Source: a virus. Taken from it: DNA of 20,251 nt. Of the stretch, positions 2,731 through 11,148 are shown one piece after another. Location of the stretch: the IMG/VR virus record IMGVR_UViG_3300046822_000224, positions 1-20,251 of that record; one strand, written 5' to 3'. Each line of letters starts with the position of its first letter. The stretch's first letter is position 1. The translations under genes were made by a program, and so were the position numbers. Below the pieces are notes generated by a model that did not search any database, was not told the origin of the DNA, and saw only the letters and a program-made list of their open reading frames with translations.

Positions 2731-2738
2731 GTTGCTAC
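2731..2738. promoter_or_regulatory. GTTGCTAC box between divergent genes
   Basis: One copy of the 8-mer GTTGCTAC (GTAGCAAC on the other strand) lies in the 30-base gap between the reverse cassette start (2710) and the helix-turn-helix gene start (2741). The same 8-mer recurs at 2877, 2889, 3208 and 3224, with near matches at 3156, 3180 and 3196. A box placed here could act on both divergent genes. Confidence 0.5.
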
Positions 2739-2740
2739 AC

Positions 2741-3151
2741 GTGACCCCGGCTCAGATCCGCCGCTCCCTGGCCGCTGCCGAGGCCCGCGCCCAGCGCTTG
2801 CGCGATGAGGCAGGCCTGGCCGAGAGGGAGGCGGAATTGATGCGGCAGCTTCTGGCCTTGCACGACGGGCCGAATCGTAGCAACATCGGTAGCAACATGC
2901 AAGCCGATGCGCTAGCCGGGAAATCGCGAGAGGTGAAGATCTCCGCGAACCGCACGCGCAAGGAATCACCCTCCCGCGCCGCTGCCGTCGCCGCGAACCT
3001 GCCCGACGGCGCAATCGCCAAGCTGCTCAAGGTCGGACGCTCGTCGGTGAACGCCTGGCACCGAGGGACCCGCGCCATCCCCGCGGCCTGCGCCGCCGCG
3101 CTCGAAAAGCGCGGAATAGACCGCTCGGTCTGGCCCAAGGTCGACTACTGA
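2741..3151 (+). CDS. helix-turn-helix regulator with N-terminal coiled coil
   Basis: A 136-residue protein from GTG 2741. Residues 5-41 form a charged helix with a heptad-like pattern (SLAAAEARAQRLRDEAGLAE), followed by a linker. Residues about 80-115 look like a Cro/YdaS-type helix-turn-helix: AAVAANLPDGAIAKLLKV, then GRSSVNAWHRGTRAIP. The tail ALEKRGIDRSVWPKVDY is typical of YdaS-like phage regulators that end in a Trp-Pro. Codon third positions are G/C-rich from 2741 on, which supports this start, but no Shine-Dalgarno precedes it. A second possible start, ATG 2897, follows directly on two GTAGCAAC boxes. The protein likely acts as the repressor or Cro-like switch for the divergent operons and its own gene. 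That role is inferred from position and the box cluster. Confidence 0.7.
   Translation: MTPAQIRRSLAAAEARAQRLRDEAGLAEREAELMRQLLALHDGPNRSNIGSNMQADALAGKSREVKISANRTRKESPSRAAAVAANLPDGAIAKLLKVGRSSVNAWHRGTRAIPAACAAALEKRGIDRSVWPKVDY
2877..2896. promoter_or_regulatory. two direct GTAGCAAC boxes inside the regulator gene
   Basis: GTAGCAAC occurs at 2877-2884 and again at 2889-2896, a 12-bp direct repeat (GTAGCAACATCG then GTAGCAACATGC), immediately before an in-frame ATG at 2897. The repeats are read as NRSNIGSNM in the protein, so they could be intragenic operators or mark an internal start. Confidence 0.5.
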
Positions 3152-3155
3152 GTTT

Positions 3156-3232
3156 GTAGCAATATCGCCGGCTTGCGGCGCTGCTACACTTTCGTGTTGC
3201 AACGTTTGTAGCAACATCGTAGTGTTGCTACA
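3156..3232 (+). promoter_or_regulatory. operator cluster and probable promoter of the early operon
   Basis: The 80-base gap after the regulator holds GTAGCAAT at 3156-3163, GCTGCTAC at 3180-3187, the palindrome GTTGCAAC at 3196-3203, GTAGCAAC at 3208-3215 and GTTGCTAC at 3224-3231. The last two form a perfect inverted repeat, TGTAGCAACA (3207-3216) and TGTTGCTACA (3223-3232), with a 6-base spacer. TGCTACACT at 3182-3190 resembles an extended -10 element (TGN plus TACACT). No good -35 is seen at the usual distance. The layout fits a repressed early promoter. Confidence 0.6.
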
Positions 3233-3534
3233 TGGCAACCGAACAACAGTCTTCCCAGTCGTTCTGCGCTCGCCCGGGTTGCGGCATCGCCAAGTCGCTG
3301 CACGGCTACTCGGCGAGCGCCTGCGCCAACTTCATCGCGCCCGGCTCGAAGGAAGCGCACGAGCTGAGGCGCGCGCACCTGTCGGTGGTCGAGACGCCGC
3401 CGCCGTTCATCGACACGCCGCCCTATGTCGAGTTCGACGTCGACGAGCCGACGCAGGTCGATCGCACGCTCAGCGACGCCGAGATGTTCGAAGAGTGGAA
3501 GGCGCGCGCGCTGGTGCTGGGGGCGCTCTCGTGA
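3232..3534 (+). CDS. small Cys/His protein, first gene of the early operon
   Basis: A 100-residue protein from ATG 3232. The N-terminal part has the spacing C12-x4-C-G-x4-KSLHG with a further Cys at 31 (CARPGCGIAKSLHGYSASAC). This short metal-binding-like motif is common in uncharacterised phage proteins. The rest is acidic with a Pro-rich linker (ETPPPFIDTPP). No family with a known function is recognised. The start codon overlaps the right arm of the operator palindrome and no Shine-Dalgarno is visible, so translation may be leaderless or weak. The stop overlaps the next GTG. Confidence 0.65.
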   Translation: MATEQQSSQSFCARPGCGIAKSLHGYSASACANFIAPGSKEAHELRRAHLSVVETPPPFIDTPPYVEFDVDEPTQVDRTLSDAEMFEEWKARALVLGALS

Positions 3535-4481: not shown

Positions 4482-4687
4482 AACGGGGTATCGCGAAGCA
4501 GATTTCGATTCAGAGGACGGTGACCTACTCATTCACGCGCGAGGACCTGATCGCGCGTCTGCGCCTGCCCGAGGACGCGCAGCTGTCGTTCGACGGCGAG
4601 ACGGTCCAGGGCGAGTTCGCGCTCACCGTCGAGGTGAAGGAATCGGTCACTCGCAAGCCGAAGGCGGAAGCGGAGCGTGCGGCATGA
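4478..4687 (+). CDS. hypothetical protein
   Basis: A 69-residue protein with ATGA overlaps at both ends. It has a beta/alpha pattern (KQISIQRTVTYSFTREDLIA, then LSFDGETVQGEFALTVEVKE) and a basic, Ala-rich tail. Its position directly upstream of the ERF gene suggests a recombination accessory role, but nothing in the sequence shows it. Confidence 0.6.
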   Translation: MKRGIAKQISIQRTVTYSFTREDLIARLRLPEDAQLSFDGETVQGEFALTVEVKESVTRKPKAEAERAA

Positions 4688-5412
4688 GCGACGAACCTCA
4701 GGTCAAAGCGGCGCCACCGCCGGCGTTCCGCATTGATGGCGATCGCGCGCTGCTGTTCGGCGCGCTGGCGAAGGCACGCGCGGCCTTCAAGGTGCTGGCG
4801 AACAACCAGACGGGCGTCGTCGAGAAGGACGGCCGCAAGCTCTACGAGTATGACTACGCCGACCTGGCGACCGTCCAGGACGCGACGACGGCGTCGCTGT
4901 CGGCCAACGGCCTGGTGATCACGCAGCCCTGGTGGTCGGATGGCGACGGCTACGTGTCGCTGACGATGCTGGCCCACGAATCGGGCGCGTACATGTCGAC
5001 CGAGACGTGGTTTGCCAAGCCGGCCGACTGGCAGAAGCTCGGGAGCGCGCTCTCGTACGTCCAGCGCTACCAGTGGCGATCGATCCTCGGCATATCCGCC
5101 AGCAAGGAGGACGACGACGGCGCGACGGCCAGCAGGGGCAACGGGAACGGCGCAGCCGCACCGGCGCGCCCGTCGACGCGCGCGCCGCAGTCCGCGGCGA
5201 AGCCGGAGATCAAGCGCGGCACCGTGACCGACGCCCAGTTGCACGACATCGTCGAGCTGGCCGAAGAACTGCACTGGGACGGCATCACGGGCGCGACGTT
5301 CATGAAGGCCACGATCGGCTACAGCTGCAAGCTCGAGGCGCTCAACGAGCCCGACGCCAAGAAGCTGATTGAGGCGATGGTGGCCGAGCAGAGCAAGGCG
5401 GTCGCGTCATGA
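4684..5412 (+). CDS. erf: ERF-family single-strand annealing protein
   Basis: A 242-residue protein. Residues about 20-146 carry the ERF pattern: FGALAKARAAFK, a strand, then KLYEYDYADLATVQDATTAS, GLVITQPWW, YVSLTMLAHESGAYMSTE, WQKLGSALSYVQRYQWRSIL and KEDDDG. ERF proteins such as P22 Erf anneal complementary single strands in phage recombination and genome circularisation, and they bind ssDNA as oligomers in the cytoplasm. A flexible Gly/Ala/Pro linker (about 147-178) leads to a C-terminal helical domain (about 180-240), as in P22 Erf. The next gene is an exonuclease-like protein with a 4-base overlap, the usual nuclease/annealase pair. The length is normal for the family. Confidence 0.92.
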   Translation: MSDEPQVKAAPPPAFRIDGDRALLFGALAKARAAFKVLANNQTGVVEKDGRKLYEYDYADLATVQDATTASLSANGLVITQPWWSDGDGYVSLTMLAHESGAYMSTETWFAKPADWQKLGSALSYVQRYQWRSILGISASKEDDDGATASRGNGNGAAAPARPSTRAPQSAAKPEIKRGTVTDAQLHDIVELAEELHWDGITGATFMKATIGYSCKLEALNEPDAKKLIEAMVAEQSKAVAS

Positions 5413-6360: not shown

Positions 6361-6401
6361 GTTTCGAAACTGACGCAGTTCCCCGGATGTTGACCATCCG
6401 G
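6361..6401. promoter_or_regulatory. palindrome and hairpin upstream of the integrase
   Basis: The 74-base gap between the early operon and the integrase holds a perfect 10-bp palindrome GTTTCGAAAC at 6361-6370 and a hairpin with arms CCGGATG (6383-6389) and CATCCGG (6395-6401) and a 5-base loop. There is no T-run. They may be an operator and an RNA structure controlling integrase expression. That is inference from position only. Confidence 0.45.
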
Positions 6402-6432
6402 CAACAATCACCGGCTCTGAGGGGAGGGCTGA

Positions 6433-7419
6433 GTGGACGAATCCGATCGCGCGCTGCTGGCGGCGATGGCGCGACAGATTGCCGAGCTGAGCGAGCGCCT
6501 TGCGCCGGTAGCGCCGTCTACGCTCACGTTCGGCGCCCTCCACGGCCTCTACGAGGCCGCGAAGAAGCGCGGAAAGAGCTGGAAGACCGTCCAGTACCTA
6601 CTCCGCCCGCCCGCGCGGGAATGGCACGAGCGCTCGGCGGCGGGCCTGCGCGTGAGCGACTGGACCGAGCTGCGCACGAAGCATGAAGAGCACTACGCGC
6701 CGACGACGCTCAATCAGATCTTGGACTGGGTGAAGGCGCTCCTGCGCTGGGGCGTCGAGCAAGGGCTGCTGCCCGATGAGCCGCACGTCTGCCGCGCGAA
6801 GTGGGCGAAGTGCAAGCGCGCGCGAGAGACGGCGCCGTCGGAGGCTGACATCTCGGCGATGCTCGCCCTGCGGAGCTGCGACGCCAAACGCCGCGTCGTC
6901 GTGCTCTGCGACTGCGACGCGGGGATGCGGGTCTCCGAGATCAAGCAGCTGCAGTGGTCGTGGCTGAATCGCGAGCGGATGGAGATCCACATCCCGAACT
7001 GGGCAGCGAAGGGCGGCTCAGGCGGCGTCACGCAGATGACCCGCCGGTTGCTCGACGCGATCGAAAATATTCCGCGCGACCTCCGCAGTCCGTTCGTGCT
7101 GCTTCACTCGAGCAACGCGGGGCCGAGGCTCTACACGCGCCAGACGCTCAGCGACTGGTGGAAGGAGCTCGCGTGCGAGGCCGGCATCCAGGCCGTTCCC
7201 GGCGAGCGGCGGGTGCATGCCCACGACGGCCGCGGAGCGTTTGCGACCCGAGCCGCCGATCGCGGCGTGCCCGTCGAGGTCATCCAGGGGATGCTTCGGC
7301 ACAAGCGGCTCGAGACGACGATCATCTATCTGCGCCGCCGTCGCCAGCGGCAGCTCCAGGGCATCGCCGCCGCCCGCGAAGCGTTCGAGCTCGGCACCGA
7401 GAAAGAACGGTCCCGATAG
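6433..7419 (+). CDS. int: tyrosine recombinase (phage integrase)
   Basis: A 328-residue protein from GTG 6433 with GGAGG at 6423-6427. The N-terminal part (about 30-130) matches a SAM-like core-binding domain (TLNQILDWVKALLRWGVEQG). The catalytic domain has all expected residues: R166 in DAGMRVSEIKQL, K193 in the beta-turn, H264 and R267 in HAHDGRGAFATRAA, H290 in GMLRHKRLETT and the nucleophile Y299 in IIYL. It performs site-specific integration and excision at attP/attB. The N-terminus has a short coiled helix but no obvious long arm-binding domain, so it may be a simple type. The downstream region holds repeats that could be its binding sites. HDGR replaces the more common HxLR. Confidence 0.93.
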   Translation: MDESDRALLAAMARQIAELSERLAPVAPSTLTFGALHGLYEAAKKRGKSWKTVQYLLRPPAREWHERSAAGLRVSDWTELRTKHEEHYAPTTLNQILDWVKALLRWGVEQGLLPDEPHVCRAKWAKCKRARETAPSEADISAMLALRSCDAKRRVVVLCDCDAGMRVSEIKQLQWSWLNRERMEIHIPNWAAKGGSGGVTQMTRRLLDAIENIPRDLRSPFVLLHSSNAGPRLYTRQTLSDWWKELACEAGIQAVPGERRVHAHDGRGAFATRAADRGVPVEVIQGMLRHKRLETTIIYLRRRRQRQLQGIAAAREAFELGTEKERSR

Positions 7420-8426: not shown

Positions 8427-9746
8427 ATGTCGAACGCAACGAAGAAGTACAGCCTGACCGACGAGCACCGAGCGCAGCTGAAGCCGTGGGCCGATCGTTG
8501 GATTGCGAATGCCCTCAACACGCAGGCGATGGATGACTCGGATCGCGATGCGATGCGCGTCGCGATCAACGGAATGTATGACGCCGCAAAGCTGGAGCGG
8601 CCCGGCCGGATCGTGTTCTGCGCTTCTCCAATTGGGGCCGCCTTCGCGGCTTCGGTTGCGGCCGGCGTCTGGTATCTCCGTCGAAATCCGGGCCAGTACA
8701 AGAAGCTCTTCGGCGCGATTTTGACCGAGCGCGAACTCGTGAATGCAATTGGGCCAGCGATAGCGCATCTCGTGCGCCATGGCACGCACCGCGCCCTTAC
8801 GCTGGAGAATCTTCCGGCACCGAAGGCAAAGGCCACGGGCGCCGCCACGGGCGCCGCCACGGGCGCCGCCACGGACGCCGCCACGCGCGACGCCACGGAC
8901 GCCGCCACGGACGCCGCCACGTACGACGCCACGGACGCCGCCACGGACGACGCCACGGACGCCGCCACGGGCGACGCCACGTACGCCGCCACGGGCGCCG
9001 CCACGGGCGACGCCACGTACGCCGCCACGGGCGCCGCCACGGGCGCCCGGCTCATACGGTTTCTCGTTGGCTGCTCCGCGTACTGGGATCGCTCTTGGAA
9101 CGGGGGGAACCAATGGAGCGGATGGGTCGCATACCTGTCGTTCTTCCGCCACGTCGCGAAGCTCGATCTGCCGGTTTACGGGAAGTTCGCGCATTACGAG
9201 GCGGCGGCGATCCATGGCGGGCCTCGCTTCCTGCACGACAAGTTCGTCATCGTCGCGGACCGTCCGACGGTGATCGCACGCGATGACCGCAGCCTGCCTC
9301 ACTCCATCAAGGGCCCGACTATCGCCTGGCGCGATGGTTGGAAGCTCTATACGTGGCACGGCACCCGCGTCCCCGAGCGCGTGATCATGGCGCCGCGGTC
9401 GTACACGCGCGACGAGTACCTGGCGATCCGCAACACCGAGGTGCGGCGCGCGCTGGGCGAGGCCGCCGGCTGGGATTGGATCTGCCAGCTGCTCGGCGCC
9501 TCGCCGGCCGATGCTTGGACCGACGCTGAGACGGGCCTTCGGTACGAGCTGCTGATGGCGCCGTCCGGCGAGCGCTGGCTACGCAAGCAGTCGCCTGCGC
9601 TGAAGCTCGGCGATCAACCTCTCTACGTCGAGCCCGTGCATGAGGAGCTGCGCTCGGCGCAAGCCGCTCGCAAGTGGCAGGCAACGCGGCTCACGCCGGC
9701 GGAGTGCGAGCGCGACCCGGTTCTCACGTACGGGACGGAGGCCTAA
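8427..9746 (+). CDS. DUF6745-like protein with an internal tetrapeptide-repeat tract
   Basis: A 439-residue protein with AAGGAG just upstream. The N-terminal 130 residues match the DUF6745 start as I remember it: a Trp-containing helix, AINGMYDAAKLERPGRIVFC, then ASPIGAAFAASVAAGVWYL. The C-terminal 230 residues continue with GGPRFLHDKFVIVADRPTVI, RDGWKLYTWHGTRVPERVI, RNTEVRRALGEAAGWDWICQ and a final region ending EPVHEELRSA. The family is of unknown biochemical function and is often accompanied by a small upstream protein. Residues 136-207 are eighteen copies of a four-residue unit A-T-x-x, with x being G, D, R or Y and then A or D, inserted between the two conserved parts. The gene is cytoplasmic by appearance, and its role in the phage is unknown. 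Confidence 0.75.
   Translation: MSNATKKYSLTDEHRAQLKPWADRWIANALNTQAMDDSDRDAMRVAINGMYDAAKLERPGRIVFCASPIGAAFAASVAAGVWYLRRNPGQYKKLFGAILTERELVNAIGPAIAHLVRHGTHRALTLENLPAPKAKATGAATGAATGAATDAATRDATDAATDAATYDATDAATDDATDAATGDATYAATGAATGDATYAATGAATGARLIRFLVGCSAYWDRSWNGGNQWSGWVAYLSFFRHVAKLDLPVYGKFAHYEAAAIHGGPRFLHDKFVIVADRPTVIARDDRSLPHSIKGPTIAWRDGWKLYTWHGTRVPERVIMAPRSYTRDEYLAIRNTEVRRALGEAAGWDWICQLLGASPADAWTDAETGLRYELLMAPSGERWLRKQSPALKLGDQPLYVEPVHEELRSAQAARKWQATRLTPAECERDPVLTYGTEA
8832..9047 (+). repeat. 18 x 12-bp in-frame minisatellite
   Basis: Eighteen uninterrupted 12-bp units of the form GCCACG-xx-CG-(C/A)-C... fill 8832-9047 exactly (216 bases). The first six bases are invariant. Variation occurs only in codon 3 (GGC, GAC, CGC, TAC) and codon 4 (GCC, GAC), so every difference changes an amino acid and none is silent. 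Copy-number change would keep the frame. The tract also keeps other frames and the opposite strand open, which creates false long ORFs. Confidence 0.95.
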
Positions 9747-10939: not shown

Positions 10940-11148
10940 TGTTGTCTCGTACGACGACTTCCGCACTGGCCTCACGTTCCGCGAGGTCCGGCAGATGCTG
11001 TGGGTCAACAACGACGACCCCGAGACGTGGCGCTACAAACGGCGCCGCACGGTGCTCGGCTTCTGGCACCAGCTCAAGCTCCAACTCTGGGCGCAGTACC
11101 TCGACGCGGTCGATGGCGATCGCCGGCGGGCCACGGGGGGGGGGCTGA
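10911..11148 (+). CDS. small conserved phage protein, frame disrupted at a G10 tract
   Basis: Starts at ATG 10911, overlapping the ParB-like gene by 29 bases. The protein reads SYDDFRTGLTFREVRQMLWV, NNDDPETWRYKRRRTVLGFW, HQLKLQLWAQYLDAV, a recognisable but uncharacterised phage-protein pattern rich in Trp and Arg. At 11135-11144 there are ten consecutive G. As written, the frame passes the expected stop and runs on to 11408 inside the helicase gene in a clearly non-coding-like sequence (Arg/Gly/Ala-rich). With nine G the frame would end at TGA 11146-11148, giving 78 residues and a TGAATG junction with the helicase, like the neighbouring genes. I list that end. Either the tract is miscounted or the gene is really frameshifted. 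Confidence 0.6.
11135..11144 (+). repeat. G10 homopolymer at a gene junction
   Basis: Ten consecutive G, four bases before the helicase ATG (11149). It is the only run of that length in the window. It lies where the helicase Shine-Dalgarno should be and also sets the reading frame of the upstream small gene. Confidence 0.95.

Follow-up and report, generated by a model that had tools for sequence, protein, structure and literature searches.

Copies of an 8-bp box lie around and inside a phage gene for a 136-aa helix-turn-helix regulator (2741–3151, + strand, GTG start), and sequence comparison makes them likely operator sites of this adjacent HTH_3-like protein, that is, candidate binding sites in a compact immunity and early-control region. 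We favor this reading because the regulator, the box, and the box positions are conserved together in a distantly related phage, while regulator and box are both absent from other related phages. The window, by which we mean the whole 20,251-bp stretch of DNA that was analyzed, is IMG/VR virus contig IMGVR_UViG_3300046822_000224, which is linear and probably incomplete. Its rightward genes encode the regulator, a 100-aa protein of unknown function, an ERF annealing protein, a RecE-type exonuclease, a tyrosine integrase (at 6433, 3.3 kb downstream of the regulator), a ParB-like protein, a DNA helicase, and TerL, a gene content that identifies the source as a temperate tailed phage. The phage, or one closely similar to it, is present in several samples, since its helicase is found at 100% amino-acid identity in three contigs from other samples (L004, L005, and, in part, L006). 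These three contigs carry no box and, judging from the position of the helicase, start downstream of the regulator.

Exact copies of GTAGCAAC/GTTGCTAC occur five times in the window, at 2731–2738 (−), 2877–2884 (+), 2889–2896 (+), 3208–3215 (+), and 3224–3231 (−), and no copy in either orientation lies outside the ~500-bp stretch from 2731 to 3231, so our count reproduced the five positions given in a first-pass annotation of this DNA. That annotation had also expected less than one copy by chance, in agreement with the 0.17 copies expected from dinucleotide shuffles, none of which (0/100) gave five. Among window 8-mers with at most four G/C, GTAGCAAC is the most clustered, and five copies of such an 8-mer within 502 bp were reached in 0 of 200 first-order Markov simulations of the window (maximum, three). 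GC-rich 8-mers cluster more strongly than GTAGCAAC because of a tandem repeat at ~8.84–9.05 kb; this GC-rich repeat (8836–9050) lies in an ORF with a DUF6745 domain (8427–9746) and encodes A-T-G/D-A-type units.

An in-frame start codon comes immediately, or almost immediately, after three of the five boxes: box 3 (2889) is directly followed by ATG 2897, box 5 (3224) by ATG 3232, and box 1 (2731) stands two bases 5' of GTG 2741. Box 2 (codons R-S-N) and box 3 (codons G-S-N) lie within the regulator gene, where the first-pass annotation had placed them. The degenerate copies that it had listed are likewise present, namely GTAGCAAT at 3156–3163 (+), 3' of the regulator stop codon, and GTAGCAGC at 3180–3187 (−), as is the related variant GTTGCAAC at 3196–3203, a perfect palindrome. 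Boxes 4 and 5 form the left and right arms of the palindrome TGTAGCAACA-N6-TGTTGCTACA (arms 3207–3216 and 3223–3232), which was rightly described as having 10-bp arms and covering the next start codon, its last base being the A of ATG 3232. The 8-mer unit is itself a near-palindrome, GTWGCWAC, and the spacings between boxes differ (12, 16, 21, and 24–26 bp), with no single dimer geometry; by analogy with the cluster A stoperators, the asymmetric box could possibly be bound by a monomer.

We searched for related modules by scanning for GTAGCAACN8GTTGCTAC, which yielded 12 viral and 70 genome loci that were then ranked by box number. One of these, L013, is a 38,141-bp contig (IMGVR_UViG_3300045391_002484) with five boxes in ~370 bp beside a homolog of the regulator, and the whole record contains exactly these five, all in the module homologous to that of the window. 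The L013 box pair is present by selection, while the other three boxes, the box positions, and the homologous regulator are unselected. Amino-acid identities between the window and L013 (37% for the regulator, 39% for the exonuclease, 31% for TerL, 49% for the helicase, and 27% for the integrase) indicate that the two phages are distant from each other. The first-pass annotation had reasoned that a true operator box should be infrequent across the genome and that a related phage keeping the protein should keep the box; all five boxes lie in the module in each phage (20-kb window and 38-kb L013), and L013, the sole relative with the protein, has five boxes. Because only two phages carry the regulator, the co-conservation rests on one comparison.

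The arrangement of the boxes is also shared. Both phages carry a pair of + boxes midway through the regulator gene (L013 counterparts of boxes 2 and 3 at 11134 and 11113); the spacing is 12 bp in the window and, three codons wider, 21 bp in L013. The second in-gene box runs directly into an in-frame ATG (window) or GTG (L013). In each phage CAA is the next codon after this internal start, which lengthens the conserved string to GTAGCAACRTGCAA (window 2897–2902). Downstream of the regulator stop codon, both phages have a degenerate box (GTAGCAAT in the window and GTAGCAAA in L013; GTTTGTAGCAATATCG against GTTTGTAGCAAATTCC), and the group ends with a + box and a − box 16 bp apart, boxes 4 and 5 and their L013 counterparts, the last of which runs directly into the ATG of the next gene. 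No counterpart of box 1 is present upstream of the regulator start in L013. The unit common to the ten sites of the two phages is the 8-mer plus a weak preceding T, where only the flanks are informative since the sites were chosen as exact 8-mers.

In phages related to the window through the exonuclease, neither the regulator nor the cluster was detected. An exonuclease alignment search returned 17 loci, one of which (L111) is the record of L013 itself and another (L102) a part of the window's phage, starting downstream of the module; neither a regulator copy nor a box cluster was detectable in any of the 15 others. In eleven of the 15, the sequence on the upstream side of the exonuclease is at least 3.8 kb long and includes the place that the regulator occupies in the window and L013; L103, L106, L113, and L115 are too short to count. 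The sixteen loci other than L111 contain three isolated boxes in 170 kb. A single-protein homolog scan of IMG/VR and tblastn in named phages gave no usable regulator homolog: HTH matches in Arthrobacter phages (E 0.3–1) had only a short stretch in common, and in the Arthrobacter phage MargaretKali the two repressor genes are separated by another repeat, AGTACTTA. No regulator homolog was found, at limited sensitivity, in ~1,460 bacterial genomes sampled from the phyla of four seed genomes (Myxococcales, Actinomycetes, Aquibium, and Verrucomicrobia), and the weak match L101, confined to the helical region, was rejected as a homolog.

Among the loci with the box pattern, most of which were assessed by box count, only L013 has a module homologous to that of the window. 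Apart from the record of the window, possibly left out by the scan, no IMG/VR sequence contained the full 10-bp-arm palindrome. Three loci were set aside: L016, in which the repeats lie within a structural-type gene; L074 (Pseudomonas putida 31753), which has repeated perfect TGTTGCTASTAGCAACA palindromes at 2635–2742 and 5345–5382, one group standing just before an ATG with a Shine-Dalgarno sequence; and L078 (a Desulfuromonadaceae contig), where TGTAGCAACATACCCATGTTGCTACA at 6401–6436 follows the last of several phage-like genes, at the end of that block. A scan for box pairs abutting ATG or GTG identified L130, where a cluster of four exact boxes spanning 111 bp precedes a different HTH gene (2380–2769, −); the region 2784–2930 holds these four and several degenerate TGTAGCAAC boxes, and a further box lies at 4602, just past the start of another ORF. 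We did not count L130 as a member, given 32% identity of the HTH segments over 31 residues, an hhalign probability of 18.8%, and a poor model, but it hints that the box may be read by more than one HTH subfamily. L132 and L135 from the same scan were inspected and not counted as members; L132 has tandem or near-tandem, iteron-like TGTAGCA(A) units at ~6363–6490, between an ATPase-like gene and the next ORF. No regulatory use of GTAGCAAC was found in the literature among the matches listed.

The co-occurrence of regulator and box bears on whether the boxes could instead be operators of a different protein, either a host regulator or a second phage regulator encoded beyond the partial contig, with the HTH gene merely a target. 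The variable box spacing would fit such a protein, binding by the regulator is only inferred, and the 20-kb record is linear and probably incomplete. However, each of the two distant phages has the regulator together with the box, other related phages lack both, and no other HTH gene adjoins the boxes, so we consider a different protein improbable.

The structure of the regulator is in keeping with an operator-binding role. A model built from the two-sequence alignment (mean pLDDT 79.4, pTM 0.44) predicts a long N-terminal helix (residues 3–42), a low-confidence or disordered linker (48–72), and a helical HTH domain (77–122), and residues 46–52, encoded by the in-gene boxes, fall at the start of the low-confidence stretch. 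The L013 homolog passes Pfam HTH_3 (25.2 bits versus a cut-off of 23), while the window regulator matched no Pfam family above a cut-off, and the YdaS family (PF15943) gathering threshold was missed (15.8–17.4 bits versus 30). The best Foldseek matches of the window model were XRE, lambda, P22, and C-protein folds (E 0.08–0.9), and comparisons with PDB and BFVD structures gave XRE/Cro-CI-like HTH matches, none with E<0.001. The predicted class is thus clearly XRE/Cro-CI-like HTH, with the closer family less certain.

The boxes downstream of the regulator gene coincide with a putative promoter of the first early gene, which encodes the 100-aa protein (3232–3534, +) and whose ATG abuts box 5. 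The sequence upstream of ATG 3232 reads TTGCAA-N17-TAGTGT-TGCTAC-ATG in the window and TTGCGT-N17-TAAGGT-TGCTAC-ATG in L013, so that the candidate −35 (TTGCAA, 3197–3202, +), which GTTGCAAC overlaps, and the candidate −10 (TAGTGT, 3220–3225, +), 17 nt after it, keep their positions as TTGCGT and TAAGGT. TTGC at −35, TA--GT at −10, and the 17-nt spacer are thus kept outside the boxes. These elements are weak consensus matches that were not called as promoters in a promoter scan; the kept geometry would nevertheless put the expected transcription start on ATG 3232, making this a probable leaderless early promoter. The starts at 2741, 2897, and 3232 have no Shine-Dalgarno sequence, in contrast with the AGGAGG of the gene starting at 2710, which is suggestive of leaderless starts but only suggestive because several other window genes also lack one. 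Box 4 fills the −35/−10 spacer and box 5 the gap between −10 and +1, a placement that would be expected for a polymerase-occluding operator.

The sites are clustered beside the repressor gene at a predicted early promoter, as in HTH_3/Cro-CI-type systems, but the divergent layout of lambda-type repressor and early genes is not found, since the regulator and the early operon are co-directional and the gene to the left is a DUF3850 gene (2264–2710, −). The first-pass annotation had proposed a multi-site operator of the neighboring HTH protein that covers divergent promoters; co-conservation in L013 and absence elsewhere support the multi-site operator, whereas the divergent promoters hold up poorly, given that the leftward gene has its own AGGAGG Shine-Dalgarno sequence, its distance to the regulator start is only 30 bp, and box 1 is absent from L013. 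The DUF3850 gene probably stands outside the regulator/box system.

The promoter layout and the class of the protein also bear on a possible role of the boxes as iterons of a replication origin, to which the regulator or some other initiator would bind. The lambda O gene contains iterons in linker-coding DNA, and the boxes resemble these in being short repeats in linker-coding DNA, within an AT-richer stretch of a GC-rich phage; the tandem TGTAGCA units of L132 look iteron-like as well. Yet the boxes abut start codons and fit a −35/−10 layout kept in two phages, their orientation is mixed with no tandem array, and the XRE/CI-like HTH protein has no initiator domain, all of which make iterons very unlikely.

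Inside the regulator gene, the boxes are constrained at the DNA level. They are read as the codons NGT AGC AAC, and the codons preceding AGC AAC in the two phages (CGT, GGT, GGT, and AGT) are rare and encode different residues: T-ending codons make up 5.5% in the genes surveyed, with CGT accounting for 7 of 220 Arg codons and GGT for 12 of 218 Gly codons. When synonymous codons were resampled 20,000 times per gene, two in-gene boxes arose in 4 trials for the window and in 6 for L013; these results are not fully independent because the genes share ancestry. Since 26 of 46 other identical residues in the gene also share their codon, codon identity alone is weak, and the argument for DNA-level constraint is carried by the rare T-ending codons. 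That the in-gene pair reflects protein-level conservation of an S-N motif plus chance codons, leaving only the downstream group as an operator, is highly improbable: although S51, N52, and Q54 are identical in both regulators, AGC and AAC are common codons, and codons are also shared at 26 of the 46 other identical residues, the preceding codons are rare and encode residues that are not the same, and synonymous chance gives two boxes in only 2–3 per 10,000 trials per gene.

If the boxes are regulator operators, as we favor, the binding, repression, promoter use, roadblock, and short form that we infer would be arranged as follows. Regulator bound to the right operator (3156–3231) would cover the −35/−10 spacer and the stretch between −10 and the start of the leaderless rightward promoter, which would silence the operon for recombination and integration. 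These sites could likewise halt read-through of the regulator's own transcript, because the regulator gene points into the early operon and a scan predicted no terminator-like site between them. The in-gene pair at 2877 and 2889, in the DNA encoding the disordered linker, would be a second operator that most likely limits transcription through the gene, as a roadblock or loop anchor.

The in-gene pair may in addition control an internal leaderless start at ATG 2897, giving an 84-aa, HTH-only form (2897–3151, +) that lacks the N-terminal helical arm. This start is attractive because, at 2897 as at 3232, the start codon directly follows a box, an abutment that L013 preserves at the internal site, and because its product would be the HTH domain plus linker, in line with the domain boundary of the model. 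No convincing −10 precedes it in the window, and we consider an internal leaderless start producing the short form possible but rather doubtful. Use of the internal ATG as the sole start was rejected, since GC3 is coding-like over codons 1–52 in both phages and the two regulators have 13 of 45 N-terminal residues in common. Equally tentative is a two-form repressor in which the box doubles as positions −8 to −1 of leaderless starts, gating both the internal start and the early gene. The HTH-only product would then be an antagonist or weak repressor, and the full-length and short forms would compete for the very sites that govern their production.

The module resembles known systems in parts. 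In mycobacteriophage BPs, a full gp33 operator pairs two short, near-palindromic half sites across a spacer of variable length (12-bp unit CGACATATGTCG), O_R lies between the −35 and −10 of the early promoter, another operator adjoins the repressor gene, and repressor isoforms arise via integration at attP (PMC4557955). The window shares with BPs a small phage repressor, paired half sites with variable spacer, a site in the −35/−10 spacer, and degenerate half sites alongside exact ones. In contrast, BPs has a divergent repressor and early gene, with sites across the genome in intergenic regions, while the window genes are co-directional, the sites fall in one 500-bp module with two in-gene, and an isoform would come from the candidate internal start. 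BPs-type integration-dependent immunity places attP inside the repressor gene, beside the integrase; the integrase of the window is at 6433, 3.3 kb downstream of the regulator. Streptomyces phage phiC31 makes three repressor isoforms from a repressor co-directional with its surroundings and has repeated, dispersed sites, at least 18 in number (PMC4557955); the window likewise combines a co-directional repressor with repeated sites, with isoforms only predicted, but its sites are not dispersed and no homology was seen.

The stoperators of cluster A (L5-like) phages are short asymmetric sites at which elongation, and not just initiation, can be blocked, and the cluster A repressor places two DNA-binding domains on one site, with sites genome-wide (PMC9283540). 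The window boxes are similarly short and asymmetric, and an elongation block is possible there, but the box is different and all sites lie within ~500 bp in both phages (for the window, in a 20-kb, probably partial record). Shigella VirF21 is an N-terminally shortened autoregulator translated from a leaderless mRNA that a gene-internal promoter produces (PMC5101355). It offers a precedent for an internal leaderless short form such as that predicted in the window, although VirF is an unrelated AraC-type regulator. The window module, co-directional and confined to a single 500-bp stretch with two in-gene sites, fits none of these systems.

For phages that metagenomes alone have revealed, the box and the regulator supply a brief, well-defined DNA site and a small protein through which lysogeny could be controlled. 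Should the in-gene boxes give rise to a short form, one operator sequence would control initiation, read-through, and isoform choice, and the module would then be a compact switch held at the DNA level in coding sequence over a large evolutionary distance.
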